From Coriobacteriaceae bacterium EMTCatB1 (GTDB lineage Bacteria; Actinomycetota; Coriobacteriia; Anaerosomatales; Anaerosomataceae), in the NCBI GenBank assembly GCA_001950395.1, contig BDLO01000001.1, positions 1,463,979 to 1,527,978 of the forward strand: DNA of 64,000 nt, read 5' to 3'. The notes under the pieces are model-generated. The model was not told where the DNA came from, made no database searches, and saw nothing but the letters and a program-made list of their open reading frames with translations. How positions within the stretch are numbered: the first letter of the stretch is position 1; every line of letters begins with the position of its first letter. The translations under genes and the position numbers were made by a program. Shown one piece after another: positions 21,079-31,179 of the stretch.

Positions 21079-24000
21079 TCAGCCGCCGAGCATCACGACG
21101 CGGACGAGGTGCGCGTTGCCGTCGTCGACGAGCGGGACGAGGCCGTTCGGCGCCTCGGCGCCGTCGCATTCGACGCGCTCGACGCCACGGTTGACGCCGC
21201 GAGGGTTCTCGAACGTGATCTCGTACGTGCTCTCCCCGTGACGGTACGTGATCGCCCACGTATCCCACGACTTGGGCACGCACGGCTCAAAGGCCAAGAA
21301 GCGCATCCCGCCGCGAGCCACGAGGTGCAGGCCGCAGATGTCGCGCACGGCCACCCGGTAGTACCAGGCCGCAGAACCGGTGTACCAGGTCCAGCCGCCC
21401 CGCCCGACGTGCGGCTCGACGGAGTACACGTCGGCGGCAAGCGCGTAGGGCTCCACCTTGTAGCGAGCCACCGCTTCGGCGTCGTCTGTGTGCGACAGCG
21501 GGTTGATGAGGTCGAGGATCGCCACCGCCTCGTCGCCGTCGCCCAAGGCCGCGTACGCGAGCGCGACCCACACCGCTGCGTGCGTGTACTGCCCGCCGTT
21601 CTCGCGCACGCCAGGGACGTATCCCTTGATGTACCCTGGATCGTTTGGCATGCGGTCGAACGGCGGGGCGAGCAGAGCCACCAGCCCGTCGTCCCACCGG
21701 ATGAGCTTCTCCTCGACGCTCTCAAGCGCTCGCTGCGTGCGAGCAGGGTCGCCCGCGCCCGAGATCGCGGCCCAGGCCTGCGCGATGGCGTCGATCTTGC
21801 ACTCCTCTGACGCCTTGCTGCCGAGCGGCGTCCCGTCGTCGAAGTATGCGCGGCGATACCAGGCGCCGTCCCACGCCTCGCGCTCGACGGCGGCGATGAG
21901 CGCCCGCGCCCTGTCGCGCCAACGGCTGGCGAGGTCGGCGTCGCCGCGGCGATCGGCGAGGTCCGCGAACGAGCGCAAGACGACGTCGAGAAACCACGCC
22001 ATCCACACGCTCTCGCCGGTGCCGCCGATGCCGACGCGGTTCATGCCGTCGTTCCAGTCGCCGCCGCCCATCAGCGGGAGTCCGTGGGGGCCGGTGGCGG
22101 CGCTCGCTTCAATCGCGCGCACGCAGTGCTCGTACACCGTTGCGACTTCGACGGACGGCTTCGGCTCGAAGTAGAGATCCTCGCGCTCCGGTGGCACGGG
22201 CGGTCCCTCGACGAAGGGCGTCTCGACGTCGAGCACGCTCTCGTCGCCTGTGGCGTTCACGTACTCGGCCACGACGAGCGGCAGCCACAACCGGTCGTCT
22301 ACGAAGCGCGTGCGGACGCCGCGGCCGCTTGCCGGCTGCCACCAGTGGAGCACGTCGCCTTCCGGGAACTGTCGGCGAGAGGCCTCGATGATGTGCTCCC
22401 GCATGAGGTCGGGGCGCACGTAGAGCAAAGCGAGGCAGTCTTGGAGCTGGTCGCGGAACCCGAATGCGCCGCTCGACTGGTAGAGCGCGGTGCGTCCCCA
22501 GAACCGGCACGCGAGCGCCTGGTAGAGCACGGGCCCGTTGACCAGCCGGTCGAGCCGCTCGTCCGGCGTGCGTATCTCGAGGCGGCCCAGCAGCTCGCGC
22601 CAGAACGCGCGGGCACGCTCTGCCTCGTGCGCAACCGCCCCAGGTTCGCGCAGGCGGTGCAGGAGCGCGTGTGCTTCCTCGACCGTCTCCGTCTGGCCCA
22701 AGAAGAACGAGACCTCGGCGTCCTCGCCCGGCGCGAGCTCGAAAGCGACCTGCAGCGCGCCGCAGTTGTCGAGGAACCGGCCGGTCGTCCCGGCAAGCCG
22801 CTCGTTGCGCATCGCGGCGGGCCAGGCGGGGTGGCCGTTGCGGCCGAGGAACGCCGTCCGGTCTGCCGTGAAGGAAGCGACGTCGCGGTCGGCGGCGAGG
22901 AACGCCGGACGGCCCGGGAAGTCGAGGTTGAACCAGTTGTGCGCCATGAGCGCCTGCGCCTGATCGTCCCACCACGTGACGACTCGCTGCTGCGCCTTGC
23001 TCCGCGAATCGCCCAGGCTCCACTCGACCACGTGGAAGAGCGAGATCGTGCGCGTCCGGTCGGTGAGGTTCCGAACGCGGACCGTGGCGATGCGCACGGG
23101 CTGGTCAGCCGAGACGAACCACTCGATACGCTGCTCGAGGCCGTGGCTGGCATGCTCGAACACGGTGCGGCCGGGGGCGTGCCGCACGACGTACGGGGCG
23201 TCGGCGCGCGCAGGCGCAGGCGTCGGGCTCCAGTGCTCGCCGGTGGCGTCGTCGCGCAGGTAGAAGAGCTCGCCCGTGCCGTCGCTCACGGGGTCGTTGT
23301 TCCACGTGGAGATGCGGTTCTCGTGGCTGTTCACGGCCCACGTGCACCCGACGCCGGCCTCCGACACGTACCCGCCGAAGGCCGGGTTCGCGAACACGTT
23401 GATCCACGGAGCCGGTGTGGTCTGGCCGGGCTCGAGCACGACGACGTACTCGCCGCTGTCGGGATCGAAGCCGCCGATGCCGTTGTCGAAAAGGAGGCGT
23501 GGGCGCTCGAACGGCGGCAGGGGGTCGTTCGCTGGCTCCTCGGACGGCATGAGCGGGTTCGGGGGCAGCGGCCTGAGCGCGCGTTGGTCGAGCTGCAGCG
23601 CGATCGGGCCTGCGTCGGCCTTCAGCACCACGCGAGCGACGCTCCTGAGCGCCTCGACGATCTCCGGTGCGATCTGGTCGGCGGCACGCAGGTGCACGCC
23701 GGCGGGCCGGTCGAGCATCTGCAGCGCGTGGCCGGTGCGCACCAAAGCGCGAAGCCGGCTGTCGAGGGCAGACGAGTACGCGCTCGGCTTGGTGTTGAGG
23801 ATGACGAGGTCGCACTCGAACCCGCGGCTGCGCCAGTACTGGTGGGCCAGCAGGGCCTGGCGGACCAACGGCGTGTCCTCCAGCCGCTCGATCTCCAGCA
23901 GCAGTATCGGGTAGTCGCCGGAGATGCCGATCGACCACAGCGCCGAGATCGGGAGCCGGTTCTCCCTCTCCGTGTAGACCTTCAGGCGGGAGTACGGATC

Positions 24001-27000
24001 CGTGAGCAGCAACCGAGACGCCAGCCGCTGGTACACGACGGCCTCTTGGGGAGTGATGCCGAGGTCGCGAAGCTCGATCTGGCTCGTGGACCACGCGAGG
24101 TCGAGCGCGCGCTGCGCGCTGCGGATGTCTCGGTACTTCTCGGCGTACGCGACCGCCTTCTCTCGGCTGTCTGCCGCGCCGAGGGCGATCGCGAGCCGGG
24201 CGGACTGGCCCGGTTCGAGGACGATCGTCTGCCGGATCGAGCAAATGGGGTCGAGCACGGCGCCGGTCGTGCCGGTCAAGCGCCCGTCCCCGACGATCGC
24301 GCGTGCGGTAGCCGGCGTCCCGAGGCGGCCGAGGAACGCTGCCCTGTCGGTTTCGTACGACCACGTGCAGCGCGTCCCGAGGTCGCACGCGATGACGTGC
24401 ACCGCCCAGACGCGCGGCTCCTCGGCGGAGCGCGGGCGGCGTGAGAGCAGCAGCGCTCCGAGCTCGTCTAACGCCTCCGTCTCGACGAACAGGTTGCTGA
24501 ACGCACGGTGCGCCTGGTCCGCGCCACGAGGGGCCAGCGTGATCTCGGCGTACGAGGTGATCTCGAGGTACGCGGCCTCACGCCGCCGGTTGGTCACCGT
24601 GAGGCGACGCACCTCGACGTCGTCTTCGGGCGACACGACGATCTCGGTGTGGGTCTCGATGCCGTCGTCCAGACGGCGGAACTCCGCTTTGTCAGGCGAG
24701 AACACGACGTGGTAGTCCTCGGGCTCCGCGCAGGTCGGCTGGTATGCCGCCGACCACGCGCGCTTGCTCTCCACGTCCTTGACGTACAGGAAGAAGCCCC
24801 AGCAGTCTCTCGTGAGGTCCTCCCGGTACCTCGTCACCGTCCGGTCACGCCAACGGGAGTACCCACCGCCCGCGTTCGTCACCATCACCGAGTACGAGCC
24901 GTTCGAGAGGAAGTGCGTCGCCGGCACCGGCGTGTGCGGCGTCGGGTACGAGCGGGCGATCGGCGGCGGCACCTCGCGCACCGAGCGAACGAACTCGACC
25001 TCCTCGACGTGCGGCTTGGCGAGCTGGATGCGACGCGGCACGCGCTCTTGAAGCAGGAGCTCCGCGGTCTGCACGACCGGGTCGCGGTGGAAGCGCTTCT
25101 GCATCGCCCAGTCAGCGAGGACGTTGCCGAGCGCGACGAGCCCCATGCCCTGGTGGTGCGCCATGTACGCGCGCACGACGGCGCGCTCGTGGCCAGGCGG
25201 CACGCGTCCCGGCGTGTAGTCGATCGCTTCGTAGTAGCCGAAGCGCCCGCGTGCTCCCTGATCTGCAAGCGCTGCGAGGTTCTGAGCAGCCGAGAGGGGG
25301 TCGACGAGGAGCGCGAGCATCGTGGCGTACGGCGCGACCACCACGTCGTCTGAAAGGCCGCGCTTGAGGCCGAGGCCCGGGACGCCGAATGCCTGGTACT
25401 GGTAGGTCATGTTCGCGTCACGTGCGGCGAATGCCGACTCCGAGACTCCCCAGGGGACTCCACGCTGCCGTCCGTACTGCATCTGCCGGCGCACGACGGC
25501 CCGGTACGTGAGGTCGAGGAGGGTGCCCGGATAGGAGCGCATCACCAGGAGGGGCATCAGGTACTCGAACATGCTGGCGCTCCAGCTGATGAGCGCCTTG
25601 CCGCTGCCGGTTTCCGTGAGCGCCCGGCTGAGGCGGAACCAGTGCTCCTGCGGGACGTCGCCTTTCGCGATCGCAACGAAGCTCGCGAGGCGGCACTCGC
25701 TCGCGAGCATGTCGTAGAAGGACGGGTCGAGACGGCCCTCAGCAGCGTTGAACCCGATCGAGAACACCTTTCGGCTCTCGTCGAAGAGCATCCGGAAGTC
25801 CATGCTCTGCCACATCTGCTGCGCGATGTCGGCTGCGAGGCGGAGCTCAGCCAAAACGCGCGAGCAATCGGGACGAGCCGCCCGAAGCGCTGCAAGCACC
25901 GCCGATGACCAAGCGCCTGCTGCCTGGTCCGCAGACAGCTCCTCGAGCCGGCGCTCGACGACGTCGAGCCCTTCTGCGAGCCCGACGAGACTCGGAACGT
26001 GCCGCGTGATGGGCGCGAGCGCGTCGTCGTCCCGGATGGACGGCGGCGCGGAGCCGAGCAGCGCCGCCCACGGCGCGAGCGTGTCGATCTTGCCGAGAAC
26101 GGCGTCGATGTGGTCCACGACGGCGTGGACGGCGCCCCGCACCGCCTCGCAGTCGCACCGGGCGTCCTCCGACGCGGGAGCGAGGCCAGAGGCGAGGTCG
26201 GCCGCCTTCTTCGCGAGCGGACGCCATGCGACGAGCGCGGAGCGCCACTCGCCTAAGTCGCGAGGGTCGGTGTCGAGCTCGATGCGTCGCGCAAGCTCCT
26301 CGAGCGCGGTCCTCACCTCTGTCGCGGCCCGAGCGTGGCCGTAGGCGCTCCGGGCGTCGATGACATCTTCGAGCGCGACCCGCACGGTGTCGGCGATTCC
26401 CTCGCGTGTGCGGGAGGAGACGAGCGGCCCTTCGGACATCTCCAACAGCCCTGTGCGGAGCGCGATGAGGTGCCCCGCGAGGTTGCCGCTGTCGACCGTG
26501 GAGACGTACGTCGGTCGCAGCGGCTGCAAGGAGAGCGTGTCGTACCAGTTGTAGAAGTGGCCGCGGAACCGCTCCAGCCCCGCCATCGTCGCCAGCGTGC
26601 GCGACACGCGGTCAACGGCCTGCGAGGTGGTGACGTACCCGAGGTCGTGAGCGGTCAGGACTGCCAGCAGCTGCAGCCCCATGTTCGTGGGGGAGGTGCG
26701 GTGCGCGACCGTCGGGGCTGGGTCTTCTTGGAAGTTGTCGGGCGCGAGGTAGTGGTCCTCCGCAGTAACGAACGTCTCGAAGAACCGCCAGGTCCGGCGT
26801 GCGATGCTGCGGAGAGTCGCCCGCGTGGGCTCGTCGATCTTCGGCTCGGCAGGGGGGTTCGGCTGGCTGATGCGCCACGCCGCGTACGGGCCTGCAAACC
26901 ACGCGACGGCGAGCGGCGCGAGCGCCGCTGCTGAGGCCGGGTCTGTGGTCGAGGACGCGGCCAGCAGCGCGACTGCCCCGAGCTGCGCAGGCAGCATCCG

Positions 27001-29850
27001 CTTGAGGTGGCCTTTCAGGTCCCGCGTCGCGCGCCGTTCGGATTCCGCCGCCGTCTCCCATTCGAGCAGGTTGCGCTTGGACACGAGGAGGCGCCACAGT
27101 GCGCGGCAGATCGCGTCGAGCATGACCCACGCCTGGTGCGGCATCACTGCAAGGCTGAACAGCGCGCGGGCGGAATCGCGCCAGAAGTCGCGCACGATCG
27201 ACGGCACGTCGCCGCGCACGTCGGCGCCGCGGGGCCGGAACAGCAGCGAGTCCGCGACGCTGAAGTAGACGGGGAAGAAGACGACTGCCAACAGCACCGC
27301 AAGCAGCAGCCAGTCTGCTCCAGGAAGCAGGGCGGCGCTCGCGGCTGCCAGCGCCACCATCGCAGGCGGGAACAGGCTCCGTCTGAGGTTGTCGAGGATC
27401 TTCCAGCGGTGCAGCGTCGTCAGCGGCGACCTCTCGTGCCCGCCCTTGCACGGCACGCGGGGGAGCAGCCACAGGATCGTCTGCCAGTCCCCGCGCACCC
27501 ACCGGTGCAGCCGGGCGGTGTGCGAGACGTAGGTCGAGGGCTGGTCGTCCAGCACCTCGACGTCGCTCGCCAGGGCGGTCTTGAGGTAGCTTCCCTCCAG
27601 CAAGTCGTGGGAAAGCAAGAGGTTCTCCGGCAATCGGCCGGCGAGCACGGTGTTGTAGACGTCGATCTCGAAGATGCCCTTGCCCGTGAACGAGCCCTCG
27701 CCGAACACGTCCTGGTAGGTGTCAGACACGGCGCCGGCGTAGGGGTCGATGCCGGTCGCGCCCGAGTAGAGCCAGGCGAACGGCGAGCGCGTCGATCCTT
27801 CCAGAGACATCCCGACACGCGGCTGCACGAGCCCGTATCCTCGCACGACCGCGCGCCTCGCGACGTCCACCTGGGCGCGATTGAGCGGGTGCGCGATCGT
27901 GCAGACCAGCTTGCGGGCCGCGTCGCGCGGCAACACGGTGTCGGCGTCGAGCGTGATGACGAACGTCGCGTCCGCAAGCTCGTCGAGAGGTCCTTCCTTC
28001 ACGAGAAAGTCAGCGCCGTTGGTGCTGCGCAAGAACGCCACCAGGTCTTCGATCGCGCCGCGCTTCCGATCGCGCCCCATCCAGACCCCGTCGCGCTCGT
28101 TGAACCGTCGGCCGCGGACGAGAAGCGCGAAGGGCGCGCGCCCCGATGTCGAGTGCCGGCTGTTCAGCGTGGCGATGCCCGTGCGCGCGGCTTCGAGGAT
28201 CGCGGCGTCGCTCGGCGTGGTCTGCTCCTTGGCGACCGGGAGGTCGCCGAGCACGGCGAACATGAGGTTGTCGTCTTCGTTCGCGAGGTACGCGACCTCG
28301 AGGTTGTCGATGACTCGCTGAGCTGCTGCGGGCGACGAGAGCAGCGCCGGGATCACGACGAGCGTCCTGTGGGCCGGGAGGAGCGGCTTTCTGAAGTCGA
28401 GCTTCGGAAGCACGCGCGGAGGCCAGATCCAGGCCGCGAGGCGGTTCACCACGTGCAGGGCGAGGTCAGATGCTGGTATGAGGGCGAGGAGGGCCAGGAG
28501 CATCGCGCTCCTCGCAGCCACGCCCATCCAGAGGGCATACGACGCGAAGGCCGCGCACAGCAGGACCGTGAGCGCAGCAGAGAGGCCCCAGTAGATGAGC
28601 CCCTTGCTCGCGAGCGGTCCCCGGTACAGCAGCTCGCGCGGCATCGGGCGATACCGCACGCTCTGCTCGAACCGGTACCTTCCGCGGCTGATGAGGTAGT
28701 AACCGACGTGCGCCGCAACCGTGTCGGTAGGGTCATCGTCGAGCGCCGACAGCGCATGGCTGATCGCGGCTTCAGCGATCTCGATCTCTGAGAACGGGCT
28801 GCGCTTCGCGATCTGCTCGACGGCCTTGCGGTAACGGTCACGCGACGAGAAGTCCATGCGGTCGTAGACGCCAGCAGGGTCTTGCCTCAGGACGTGGTCG
28901 ACGAGAGAGCAGTCTTCGAAGAAGTCCCGCCACTCGAGAGCGGAGAGGAATCGCATCGCGGTGATCGTGTTCGCCACCGAGACCTGATCCGCGGCCTGCT
29001 GACGATGCTCCTCGGCCGTCAGGTCCTCGAGCGAGCGCCCCATCTCCGCCAGCCGTGCGTCCCCCCATGCCGCTGCCGGATCGACCGAGGGATCCTGGTC
29101 GCGCAGCCGTTGGAGGAACCGCAGCACGAACGCCGGAGAGGGGCTGCCGACGGTCTCGGCGAGCTGCGACACCACCGGCTCCACCGCATAAGCAGAGCGG
29201 ATGGCTGCCTCGATCACGCGGTTCGCCCACTCGTCGGCCTCGACGCTGTCGACGTGGCTCGCCAGCACCCTCCTGCCGAGCCGGGCGAGGTTCTCGACGA
29301 GCGCGATGCGCAGCACGATAGGGACGGCCCACAGCTCGCCTATGGTGAGCGGCGAGACGTCCTGGTACGCCATGACGAATTGCTCGAGCAGCGCCCTGTC
29401 GAGCCGAGCGTCCGTGCCGGCGACGAGCAGCGCGACTGCCTCGAAGATCCGCGGCAGTCCCGCGAGGGGGCCTTCCGTAAGCCGCGGCAGCTCTGCTCCG
29501 AATGCCTCGGGCAGGTCCTCGCGCGCGGTGCGGATTTGCTCTTCCACCAGGTAGTGGTTGTCGAGCAGCCACTCGGCAGCTACGGAGACGGATACCTGCG
29601 CGTGGGCGTCGTGGGCGAGCCGCCGGTGGGTTGCGGTGACCGATTGCTCGGCGTCGTCGAGCAGGTCGAGCAGAGGCGTTCGCAAGGCGATCCGCTTCGA
29701 CTCCCAGGTCTGTGCGGCGGCGAGCGCCCGGGCTTCGTCAGACAGTCGTTGGGCGCTCATGAGCTCTATGCGCAGCGGCGCGCCTGCTGCGACGGCTTCC
29801 CATAGCGATGCCCGCGCGTCGCGCATGTGGTCTCCAACGCTCGTGGACAT
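21079..29850 (-). CDS. Cyclic beta-1,2-glucan synthase-like giant enzyme (GT84-GH94)
   Basis: This 2923-residue protein has the full NdvB/ChvB/Cgs architecture. An N-terminal domain spans about 1-415 and is followed by membrane helices around 420-460. The GT84 glycosyltransferase core has VITLDADTVLPRDAAR near 635, SHDLLEG near 750 and the QxxRW-like HRWVRGDWQ near 785. More helices lie at about 823-870. Next is a middle glucoamylase-like region (about 1030-1560), and then a GH94 phosphorylase-like part ending with GGGDWNDGMNRVG near 2600. Rhizobial enzymes of this type prime, extend, trim and cyclise beta-1,2-glucan from UDP-glucose. AGAGGG sits correctly for ATG 29850 but not for 29856. The product in this organism is inferred. 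Confidence 0.88.
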   Translation of the reverse strand: MSTSVGDHMRDARASLWEAVAAGAPLRIELMSAQRLSDEARALAAAQTWESKRIALRTPLLDLLDDAEQSVTATHRRLAHDAHAQVSVSVAAEWLLDNHYLVEEQIRTAREDLPEAFGAELPRLTEGPLAGLPRIFEAVALLVAGTDARLDRALLEQFVMAYQDVSPLTIGELWAVPIVLRIALVENLARLGRRVLASHVDSVEADEWANRVIEAAIRSAYAVEPVVSQLAETVGSPSPAFVLRFLQRLRDQDPSVDPAAAWGDARLAEMGRSLEDLTAEEHRQQAADQVSVANTITAMRFLSALEWRDFFEDCSLVDHVLRQDPAGVYDRMDFSSRDRYRKAVEQIAKRSPFSEIEIAEAAISHALSALDDDPTDTVAAHVGYYLISRGRYRFEQSVRYRPMPRELLYRGPLASKGLIYWGLSAALTVLLCAAFASYALWMGVAARSAMLLALLALIPASDLALHVVNRLAAWIWPPRVLPKLDFRKPLLPAHRTLVVIPALLSSPAAAQRVIDNLEVAYLANEDDNLMFAVLGDLPVAKEQTTPSDAAILEAARTGIATLNSRHSTSGRAPFALLVRGRRFNERDGVWMGRDRKRGAIEDLVAFLRSTNGADFLVKEGPLDELADATFVITLDADTVLPRDAARKLVCTIAHPLNRAQVDVARRAVVRGYGLVQPRVGMSLEGSTRSPFAWLYSGATGIDPYAGAVSDTYQDVFGEGSFTGKGIFEIDVYNTVLAGRLPENLLLSHDLLEGSYLKTALASDVEVLDDQPSTYVSHTARLHRWVRGDWQTILWLLPRVPCKGGHERSPLTTLHRWKILDNLRRSLFPPAMVALAAASAALLPGADWLLLAVLLAVVFFPVYFSVADSLLFRPRGADVRGDVPSIVRDFWRDSARALFSLAVMPHQAWVMLDAICRALWRLLVSKRNLLEWETAAESERRATRDLKGHLKRMLPAQLGAVALLAASSTTDPASAAALAPLAVAWFAGPYAAWRISQPNPPAEPKIDEPTRATLRSIARRTWRFFETFVTAEDHYLAPDNFQEDPAPTVAHRTSPTNMGLQLLAVLTAHDLGYVTTSQAVDRVSRTLATMAGLERFRGHFYNWYDTLSLQPLRPTYVSTVDSGNLAGHLIALRTGLLEMSEGPLVSSRTREGIADTVRVALEDVIDARSAYGHARAATEVRTALEELARRIELDTDPRDLGEWRSALVAWRPLAKKAADLASGLAPASEDARCDCEAVRGAVHAVVDHIDAVLGKIDTLAPWAALLGSAPPSIRDDDALAPITRHVPSLVGLAEGLDVVERRLEELSADQAAGAWSSAVLAALRAARPDCSRVLAELRLAADIAQQMWQSMDFRMLFDESRKVFSIGFNAAEGRLDPSFYDMLASECRLASFVAIAKGDVPQEHWFRLSRALTETGSGKALISWSASMFEYLMPLLVMRSYPGTLLDLTYRAVVRRQMQYGRQRGVPWGVSESAFAARDANMTYQYQAFGVPGLGLKRGLSDDVVVAPYATMLALLVDPLSAAQNLAALADQGARGRFGYYEAIDYTPGRVPPGHERAVVRAYMAHHQGMGLVALGNVLADWAMQKRFHRDPVVQTAELLLQERVPRRIQLAKPHVEEVEFVRSVREVPPPIARSYPTPHTPVPATHFLSNGSYSVMVTNAGGGYSRWRDRTVTRYREDLTRDCWGFFLYVKDVESKRAWSAAYQPTCAEPEDYHVVFSPDKAEFRRLDDGIETHTEIVVSPEDDVEVRRLTVTNRRREAAYLEITSYAEITLAPRGADQAHRAFSNLFVETEALDELGALLLSRRPRSAEEPRVWAVHVIACDLGTRCTWSYETDRAAFLGRLGTPATARAIVGDGRLTGTTGAVLDPICSIRQTIVLEPGQSARLAIALGAADSREKAVAYAEKYRDIRSAQRALDLAWSTSQIELRDLGITPQEAVVYQRLASRLLLTDPYSRLKVYTERENRLPISALWSIGISGDYPILLLEIERLEDTPLVRQALLAHQYWRSRGFECDLVILNTKPSAYSSALDSRLRALVRTGHALQMLDRPAGVHLRAADQIAPEIVEALRSVARVVLKADAGPIALQLDQRALRPLPPNPLMPSEEPANDPLPPFERPRLLFDNGIGGFDPDSGEYVVVLEPGQTTPAPWINVFANPAFGGYVSEAGVGCTWAVNSHENRISTWNNDPVSDGTGELFYLRDDATGEHWSPTPAPARADAPYVVRHAPGRTVFEHASHGLEQRIEWFVSADQPVRIATVRVRNLTDRTRTISLFHVVEWSLGDSRSKAQQRVVTWWDDQAQALMAHNWFNLDFPGRPAFLAADRDVASFTADRTAFLGRNGHPAWPAAMRNERLAGTTGRFLDNCGALQVAFELAPGEDAEVSFFLGQTETVEEAHALLHRLREPGAVAHEAERARAFWRELLGRLEIRTPDERLDRLVNGPVLYQALACRFWGRTALYQSSGAFGFRDQLQDCLALLYVRPDLMREHIIEASRRQFPEGDVLHWWQPASGRGVRTRFVDDRLWLPLVVAEYVNATGDESVLDVETPFVEGPPVPPEREDLYFEPKPSVEVATVYEHCVRAIEASAATGPHGLPLMGGGDWNDGMNRVGIGGTGESVWMAWFLDVVLRSFADLADRRGDADLASRWRDRARALIAAVEREAWDGAWYRRAYFDDGTPLGSKASEECKIDAIAQAWAAISGAGDPARTQRALESVEEKLIRWDDGLVALLAPPFDRMPNDPGYIKGYVPGVRENGGQYTHAAVWVALAYAALGDGDEAVAILDLINPLSHTDDAEAVARYKVEPYALAADVYSVEPHVGRGGWTWYTGSAAWYYRVAVRDICGLHLVARGGMRFLAFEPCVPKSWDTWAITYRHGESTYEITFENPRGVNRGVERVECDGAEAPNGLVPLVDDGNAHLVRVVMLGG

Positions 29851-29937
29851 GGTCATCCCTCTTGTATTCTGCCACGAAACCAGGCGAAGAACGGCACAGC
29901 GCTTGCAGCGAGCCAGCCGCGAGGCACGAGGAATCCA

Positions 29938-29966
29938 TTGCCCTCCGATACCCAGCGGGGTATACT
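29938..29966 (+). promoter_or_regulatory. Promoter of the rhodanese-thioredoxin selenoprotein
   Basis: TTGCCC at 29938-29943 and TATACT at 29961-29966 are 17 bp apart, about 30 bases upstream of the start codon. The region is the divergent spacer with the cyclic-glucan-synthase gene. Confidence 0.5.
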
Positions 29967-29996
29967 ACAGCGGTAATCGACGGAACGGAGCTTTTC

Positions 29997-30758
29997 ATGG
30001 CGAACCGCAAGAAACCCGTCGCGCAGCCCAAGCAGGCTCCGCGCTCGAAAGGCGCATGGCTCATCGCCGGAGTCGCGCTGTTCGCGCTGGTCGCGATCGT
30101 CGTCATCGCATCGCTCGGACGGACGGGACCGCTTCCTGCCTCTGGAGACGTGTCTAACGCAGAGGCCAAGGCGCTGATCAAGCGCGGGGCCCGCATCGTG
30201 GACGTGCGCACGCCGGAGGAGTTCGCGGCTGCGCACATCCCCGGCGCGGAGAACGTCCCCATGGACAAGATCCTGGCGGAGGCCGGATCGTGGGACAAGA
30301 CCGAGCCCGTGCTCTTGTACTGCGCGACAGGCGAGCGTTCGGCGTACGTGTTCCAGCAGATGGCCCAGGCAGGTTTCCAGCACCTGTACAACCTCAAGGA
30401 CGGCATCGTCGCGTGGGACGGGGACGTCGACTCCGGGTCGGCCACGAAGACTGCCGACGGTCTGCAGCCCCTGCCGAGCGGGCTCCCTGCGATGTACGAG
30501 TTCTTCACCGACTGGTGACCCACCTGCCGCAAGATGGCGCCCGTGGTCGACGGGCTGAAGGGGCAGTACGAGGGCAAGGTGGAGTTCAAGCTGTACGACG
30601 TGGAGAAGGACAAGGAAGGCGGGCGCCTCGCCGATTCGCTGGGTCTGCAGTACGTGCCCACGTTCGTGTTCGTCTCGTCCGACGGCTCGATCGTCCAGAA
30701 GGTCGTCGGCGAGATGACGGAGGCGCGGATGCGGGAGATCCTCGACTCGTTGAAGTAA
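29997..30758 (+). CDS. Membrane-anchored rhodanese-thioredoxin fusion, probable selenoprotein (in-frame UGA)
   Basis: The frame runs from ATG 29997 (ACGGAG upstream) to 30758, with one in-frame TGA at 30516-30518. Read as selenocysteine this gives a 253-residue protein. A membrane helix lies at 20-40. The rhodanese domain spans about 52-145 with active Cys109 in YCATGERS. The thioredoxin domain spans about 165-253 with W173-U174-P-T-C177 and the cis-Pro motif YVPTFVFV. The UGA falls exactly where thioredoxins have the first Cys of WCxxC, and downstream codons continue the family's sequence. A SECIS-like hairpin follows at 30539-30555. A likely role is extracytoplasmic sulfur or disulfide redox. 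The alternative is a nonsense mutation; conserved coding beyond the stop and the hairpin argue against it. Confidence 0.85.
30539..30555 (+). promoter_or_regulatory. Bacterial SECIS-like stem-loop
   Basis: A 6-bp perfect stem GCCCGT/ACGGGC (30539-30544 with 30550-30555) closes the loop GGTCG. The loop guanines lie about 26 bases after the UGA codon, in the usual range for bacterial SECIS elements. The GGU loop matches the SelB-recognised loop known from E. coli fdhF. Recoding activity is inferred. Confidence 0.7.
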
Positions 30759-30778
30759 CGGCAGCCACGGGGTATAAC
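30750..30778 (+). promoter_or_regulatory. Promoter of the structured non-coding RNA
   Basis: TTGAAG at 30750-30755 and TATAAC at 30773-30778 are exactly 17 bp apart. The -35 hexamer overlaps the 3' end of the selenoprotein gene. The predicted start falls near 30785, just at the first hairpin of the downstream RNA. Confidence 0.6.
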
Positions 30779-30784
30779 GAACAC

Positions 30785-31077
30785 AGAGGAGGTTTCTCCT
30801 CTCGGTCTGACAGACGGAGGTGAGGGTATACCGGTGGCGGAGATCGAGTGCCAGGCTTCGGCCGGGGCGGCAGATGAAGGCGTCGGAACCCTCGCCGAGG
30901 GATGTGGCGCGGAGTCCGGCGACCGGGCATAAGCCCCTGGCGATCCGGGAGGTGCGGCCGAAAGGGAACGCTCAGTCGGCCAAGAGCTTCCGAGGATAGC
31001 CCTGTGGAGGGGCGGCTCGGGCGGTGCGAAGGCCGTTCCGGCTCCAGTCTCGAGAGGCCCGCGGATGCGGGCCTCTC
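30785..31077 (+). ncRNA. Structured non-coding RNA of unassigned family
   Basis: The 345 bases between the selenoprotein and tRNA-Ala hold no convincing reading frame but many perfect short helices. These are AGAGGAG-GTTT-CTCCTCT at 30785-30802, GTCTG-A-CAGAC at 30805-30815, CCCTCG..CGAGGG near 30889-30901, GGGC-ATAA-GCCC at 30925-30936, and GGCCGA...TCGGCC at 30956-30981. A strong promoter precedes the segment and an 11-bp GC hairpin ends it. I do not recognise tmRNA, RNase P, SRP or 6S signatures, nor a tRNA-Sec. The raiA-type RNA of Firmicutes and Actinobacteria is one candidate to test, but I cannot confirm it. Confidence 0.55.
31052..31077 (+). terminator. Hairpin terminator of the non-coding RNA
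   Basis: An 11-bp perfect stem (31052-31062 with 31067-31077, arm GAGAGGCCCGC) closes a GGAT loop directly upstream of the tRNA-Ala promoter. The following bases are not T-rich, so termination may be incomplete or need Rho. Confidence 0.5.
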
Positions 31078-31084
31078 TGCGCGG

Positions 31085-31093
31085 TGCTATACT
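31085..31093 (+). promoter_or_regulatory. Extended -10 promoter of tRNA-Ala
   Basis: TGCTATACT is a consensus-like extended -10 element ending 10 bases before the tRNA. No good -35 hexamer is visible because the terminator hairpin occupies that place. Confidence 0.45.
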
Positions 31094-31103
31094 GCGCGGT
31101 TGC

Positions 31104-31179
31104 GGGGACGTAGCTCAGTTGGGAGAGCGCGGGCTTTGCAAGCCTGAGGTCGAGGGTTCGAGCCCCTTCGTCTCCACCA
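31104..31179 (+). tRNA. tRNA-Ala (TGC anticodon)
   Basis: This 76-base cloverleaf has acceptor arms GGGGACG and CGTCTCC, which include the G3-U70 wobble pair that identifies alanine tRNAs. The D-arm is TAGCTCAGTTGGGAGAGCG. The anticodon stem CGGGC/GCCTG encloses TTTGCAA, with the anticodon at 31137-31139. The T-loop is GGTTCGAGCC. The CCA end is encoded at 31177-31179. Confidence 0.97.

Follow-up and report, generated by a model that had tools for sequence, protein, structure and literature searches.

A membrane-anchored rhodanese-thioredoxin fusion of Anaerosomatales with a predicted selenocysteine at its thioredoxin redox site

The genome of Coriobacteriaceae bacterium EMTCatB1 consists of one contig of 1.84 Mb, and the 64,000-nt stretch analysed here (the window; C1:1463979-1527978) contains a gene, 29997-30758 (+), which joins a rhodanese domain to a thioredoxin domain and has an in-frame TGA within the latter. 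This locus raises the question of whether that codon ends the protein or encodes selenocysteine and, in the second case, what a selenol beside a sulfurtransferase might do. An earlier note, made from the letters of the window, had proposed a new selenoprotein architecture. In this study, the selenoprotein status of the fusion is found to be near certain. The best overall explanation, to which we assign a probability of roughly 0.78, is an outward-facing selenoprotein that would be fed by TrxA and CcdA, would reduce sulfane sulfur and would be controlled through a shared operator.

Gene and domain layout

With the TGA at 30516-30518 (+) counted as residue 174, the gene reads as a 253-aa frame with only one other stop, the terminal TAA (30756-30758). 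Both Pfam domains score above gathering, the rhodanese domain at residues 54-141 (30156-30419, +; PF00581, 71.5 bits against a cut-off of 22.2, E 8.6e-20) and the thioredoxin domain at residues 166-250 (30492-30746, +; PF00085, 47.1 bits against 23.5, E 2.5e-12). The rhodanese domain carries the catalytic Cys109 (tgc, 30321-30323, +) in a CATGERS loop, and the thioredoxin domain carries U174 and the resolving Cys177 of the U-P-T-C motif (30525-30527, +), two residues apart, together with cis-Pro221 of the thioredoxin fold (30657-30659, +). The UGA stands exactly where the earlier note had placed it, at the first Cys of WCxxC (here W-U-P-T-C).

The AlphaFold model shows an N-terminal membrane-spanning helix at residues 19-40 (30051-30116, +) followed by two confident domains (mean pLDDT 88.8), and Foldseek matched the model to rhodanese and thioredoxin structures; the pTM of 0.57 leaves the mutual arrangement of the two domains open in this model. 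Among the 53 fusions described below, a simple pattern and hydropathy scan found a transmembrane-like segment only in 39 and a lipobox-like match in 13. Because of this N-terminal helix or lipobox, an anchored protein with both domains facing outward is very likely, and the membrane-anchored rhodanese with an active Cys109 that the earlier note described is borne out by the model, the domain score and the conservation of that residue.

Conservation of the in-frame UGA

Homologues were searched at a threshold of E<=1e-20 in 69 genomes of the order and in 229 other genomes of the class. Profile sampling covered this phylum; beyond it, the search comprised one pattern scan of genome contigs together with the phage and plasmid collections. 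Strong matches occurred in 57 of the 69 genomes of the order, including, by our own count, 53 full-length fusions in 51 genomes that represent 31 genera and 14 families. The UGA occupies a single aligned column in each of the 53 and is followed by about 79 conserved codons, and every order-level match at this threshold that spans the thioredoxin domain contains exactly one TGA. Since all homologous fusions share this column, the UGA at 30516-30518 is not a chance occurrence. Cys177 is conserved in all 53 fusions, and cis-Pro221 and the rhodanese Cys109 in 52 each.

The outcome that would have spoken against a selenoprotein, TGC/TGT or a true stop at the UGA column, did not arise in any of the 53 fusions. 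The 69 genomes of the order yielded no Cys version of the fusion, and at E 1e-20 the rest of the class (229 genomes) gave no fusion. One lipoprotein resembling a stop-free fusion (L119, G038:C170:3286-3987) was rejected as a Cys orthologue because its redox residues are lost and its rhodanese-thioredoxin similarity is degenerate. Within a genus, the part 3' of the UGA has a dN of 0.03-0.14 against a dS of 0.41-0.56, and by such sequence comparison coding constraint persists beyond the UGA. Moreover, 11 of the 53 fusion genes terminate in TGA, so that UGA serves as selenocysteine codon and as stop in the same genes.

The exchange of Cys and Sec at residue 174 that the earlier note had proposed to look for holds for distant relatives, namely L158 (WCGAC), L162 (TCPSC) and a rhodanese-thioredoxin lipoprotein of Persicobacter (L164, WCGSC), and fails among close orthologues, all 53 of which have UGA. 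An in-frame UGA where homologues have Cys is the pattern by which a bacterial selenoprotein is recognized. The phage collection yielded partial matches to the fusion only, and full-length similarity in the plasmid collection was limited to Cys proteins or to adjoining genes. A Latilactobacillus plasmid match was discarded as a fusion, its rhodanese-like part lying within an ArsR-family gene that is followed by a separate trxA.

Thioredoxins of a related kind occur alongside the fusion. Of the 12 genomes lacking a strong match, three have weaker matches with the same TGA (L117, L118 and L120). These are counted, together with the broken fusion copy L089, among 23 loci of a short Sec-thioredoxin class without rhodanese in the order, 17 of which have a lipobox-like match. 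This family (including G003:C17:24740-25051, G007:C3:59425, G022:C11:277336, L014, L064 and L065) is mostly lipoprotein-like, with a UxxC motif and a similar SECIS. Short Sec-thioredoxins without rhodanese are also present elsewhere in the phylum (L149-L157).

SECIS element and selenocysteine machinery

A stem-loop of 6 bp follows the UGA at 30539-30555 (+), formed by GCCCGT (30539-30544) and ACGGGC (30550-30555) around the loop GGTCG (30545-30549; GGUCG in the RNA), with a UGA-to-loop distance of 26 nt, and the positions given in the earlier note were found to be correct. Bacterial SECIS elements are described (PMC13188914) as having a stem of 4-16 bp, a loop of 3-9 nt with G in its first two positions, a distance of 16-37 nt after the UGA and a minimum free energy of at most -7.5 kcal/mol. 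The fusion stem-loop lies within these bounds. RNAalifold on 76 sequences returned, unprompted, the same six pairs that the earlier note had drawn, with a consensus energy of -10.87 kcal/mol. The stem is paired in 98.6% of cells, and both sides have changed in 44 cells, a count reached by none of 500 shuffles (12.5 expected), so that it behaves as a bSECIS; when the partner is shifted by 1-3 columns, pairing falls to 25-53%. The clearest covarying pair in the fusions is formed by position 3 of the Pro182 codon and position 1 of codon 186 (U-A in 34, C-G in 17 and G-C in 2), the Pro codon tracking the first base of a Gly/Arg codon. Folded as a single sequence, the window stem-loop is no more stable than shuffles (z -0.27), and the support for the stem in these alignments is covariation, not single-sequence stability.

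The selA, selB, selD and UCA-anticodon tRNA-Sec genes, which the earlier note had named as a check, are all in the genome. SelD is encoded at C1:1713630 and has one in-frame TGA of its own, SelA at C1:1717304 and SelB at C1:1718510, and the tRNA-Sec (anticodon TCA) directly follows the SelB gene. Insertion of selenocysteine at UGA174 is thus hardly in doubt, and it would be carried out by SelB and tRNA-Sec, guided by the stem-loop 26 nt 3'.

Comparison with known selenoproteins

A 2026 inventory of prokaryotic selenoproteins comprises 119 families, of which Sec-Trx (UxxC), rhodanese forms 1-5 and TsoB come nearest to the fusion; as far as its accessible text goes, the fusion itself is absent from it, in line with the earlier note (PMC13188914). 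Among the titles and abstracts listed by searches of open-access papers, none was relevant to rhodanese-thioredoxin fusions or to OPB41 and selenium. The Sec-thioredoxin family (PF00085, UxxC) shares with the fusion the thioredoxin fold, Sec in the first redox position and Cys in the second, but appears in that inventory as a family of the Trx domain, whereas here the domain stands behind a rhodanese and a membrane anchor (PMC13188914). Rhodanese selenoproteins of forms 1-4 (PF00581/NF041203) likewise have a rhodanese domain, yet with the rhodanese-type Sec motifs UxxS, UxxG or CxU; the fusion keeps Cys109, has its Sec in the thioredoxin and scores 34.7 bits against the NF041203 cut-off of 115. 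TsoB (NF045694) also unites a rhodanese with a thioredoxin module of the DsbD type within a single selenoprotein, and its DsbD part is similar (63.6 bits) to the stand-alone CcdA-type protein in the regulon described below. However, TsoB contains two Sec and, as its membrane reductase domain, the DsbD transmembrane domain, while the fusion has one UGA, a single helix (19-40), a Cys-type rhodanese and a TsoB score of 24.5 bits against a cut-off of 805.

The same architecture is seen in Persicobacter L164 (plasmid CP012852.1), which has a lipoprotein-like start, a rhodanese with CHSGGRS and a thioredoxin in the same layout, but with Cys for Sec, 28% identity and a different phylum. We class the fusion as a new selenoprotein architecture assembled from known parts. 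It adds a domain architecture to the selenoprotein list, with Sec in all members found, across 14 families of the order.

Promoter-like site, putative operator and predicted regulon

Flanking ORFs were clustered over 45 fusion loci, which revealed a divergent ndvB-like neighbour and, in some, convergent glnB/amtB-like genes, names that reflect our reading of the sequences. No operon partner was found among these loci and the gene stands alone, so the functional reading rests on co-regulation. A sigma-70-like promoter, TTGCCC-17-TATACT (29938-29966, +), is the sole promoter-like match in 29840-31110, with 0.1 expected. Between and over its elements lies a palindromic putative operator, ATACCC-AGCG-GGGTAT (ATACCCAGCGGGGTAT; 29948-29963), present once in the window with 0 expected. 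Of the 45 loci, 38 have a matching palindrome upstream of the fusion. The strict form, ATACCC-N4-GGGTAT, was found in 67 of the 69 genomes of the order, where a control pattern gave 0 in all, and the looser ATACC-N6-GGTAT has 6 copies in the EMTCatB1 genome against 0 for a reversed control. The five other sites (C1:364279, 372578, 413990, 1408159 and 1785393) stand before trxA, a DsbD/CcdA-type membrane gene, an FAD/CCG oxidase gene, an MFS transporter gene and an MCP gene, and 40 further sites in several genomes repeatedly place the palindrome 5' of trxA, ccdA, the FAD/CCG oxidase gene and the MCP gene. The palindrome defines a predicted conserved regulon, new here, of the fusion, trxA, the CcdA/DsbD-type gene and the MCP gene. 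It was not found upstream of the short Sec-thioredoxin genes, except at the broken fusion L089.

The only CsoR-family gene of the genome lies at C1:365301, near trxA, and is near trxA in further genomes as well; its product probably acts as the regulator through the predicted operator. In a printed alignment, this protein has Ser opposite a His of Streptomyces CsoR that we take to be a copper ligand, which leans it towards the CstR type. In a CstR-type regulon, a CsoR-family repressor that responds to sulfane sulfur binds the operator. The CstR/CsoR regulons resemble the one proposed here in a GC-tract palindrome with TAC/GTA ends and in target genes, a rhodanese among them, that handle sulfur or thiols. 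They differ in that the spacer is N4 here, one base apart from the N5 of the Streptomyces CsoR operator consensus (PMC3902906), and in that the putative repressor gene lies far from most targets.

Proposed function and alternatives

Domain architecture, Sec machinery, UGA conservation, SECIS covariation and the shared operator are read directly from the genomes, and on them a conditional mechanism can be built. The protein would present a Cys-type rhodanese and a thioredoxin with a Sec-x-x-Cys site on the outer face of the membrane. Cytoplasmic TrxA would supply electrons, which the CcdA/DsbD-type membrane protein would relay to that site, and the selenol would reduce extracytoplasmic sulfane sulfur in the form of the Cys109 persulfide, polysulfide, or protein disulfides or persulfides. 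Fusion, trxA and ccdA would be controlled via the operator, with the CsoR-family protein whose gene lies near trxA as the probable repressor. That TrxA and a CcdA-type protein are co-regulated with the fusion points to a reducing relay across the membrane, and a relay from TrxA and CcdA to Sec174-Cys177 is somewhat favoured. The conserved Cys109 suggests a persulfide as a nearby substrate; that persulfide is the main substrate is put forward tentatively, at slightly less than even odds. We infer that rhodanese sulfur is chemically coupled to the U/C pair. The shared operator ties the fusion to TrxA and CcdA, offering a testable route by which reducing power may be moved out to a selenol beside a sulfurtransferase. 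More speculatively, TrxA, CcdA and the Sec-thioredoxin-rhodanese might form a selenium-dependent trans-envelope system for sulfane-sulfur reduction, united in one regulon under a persulfide-sensing CsoR-family repressor and ancestral to the whole order of subsurface actinobacteria. Parvivirga hydrogeniphila of this order is reported to reduce neither thiosulfate nor sulfur (PMC9686372), making respiratory sulfur reduction unlikely in that strain.

The relay and substrate readings are challenged mainly by a general extracytoplasmic thiol-disulfide reductase of the ResA/TlpA type. The same selenoprotein would then act on, for example, cytochrome c haem-site or protein disulfides, with the rhodanese only a sulfur acceptor or scaffold. 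A CcdA/DsbD-type protein, with which the fusion is co-regulated, is the usual partner of ResA-type thioredoxins, and a multihaem cytochrome gene lies near another operator site. However, 52-53 of the 53 fusions retain Cys109 and the GxRS loop, suggesting active sulfur chemistry, and several genomes have a separate Sec-thioredoxin lipoprotein without rhodanese and without the operator. We regard a general reductase as a plausible minority explanation, and sulfane-sulfur reduction by the fusion as the preferred one.

That the UGA is a real stop, with the rhodanese ending at residue 173 and an ORF from ATG 30534 encoding a separate short protein, is the split that standard gene calling would yield, and this ATG opens 74 codons; callers treating UGA as stop would cut the fusion to its rhodanese and lose the redox domain. 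This is very improbable, since the stretch from UGA to ATG is conserved, including Cys177, the Met of ATG 30534 is a Val, Ile or Leu codon in other fusions, the frame is unbroken in all and neither redox residue would be present in the downstream piece, in addition to the Sec machinery and the SECIS covariation; stop and restart was rejected on these grounds, as was code reassignment. That the UGA specifies a different amino acid or is passed through unguided readthrough is scarcely credible; no favouring evidence was found, and it is opposed by the complete Sec machinery, the Sec-type UGA in SelD, the covarying SECIS and the use of UGA as the normal stop of 11 fusion genes.

Neighbouring elements

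The ndvB-like neighbour in the window is an ORF of 2925 aa (21079-29856, -) transcribed away from the fusion, and its homologues are found at the 45 fusion loci examined, upstream of the fusion and on the other strand. Downstream, a candidate structured RNA extends over about 30813-31078, with its core at 30924-31042 (+; GGGCAUAAGCC...GGGCGGUGCGAAGGCC, then a hairpin), and has no Rfam match at gathering. It follows most of the 53 fusions in the same orientation, in most cases 200-350 nt past the stop and nearer within the genus, and this conserved, unannotated element shows compensatory changes in several helices.
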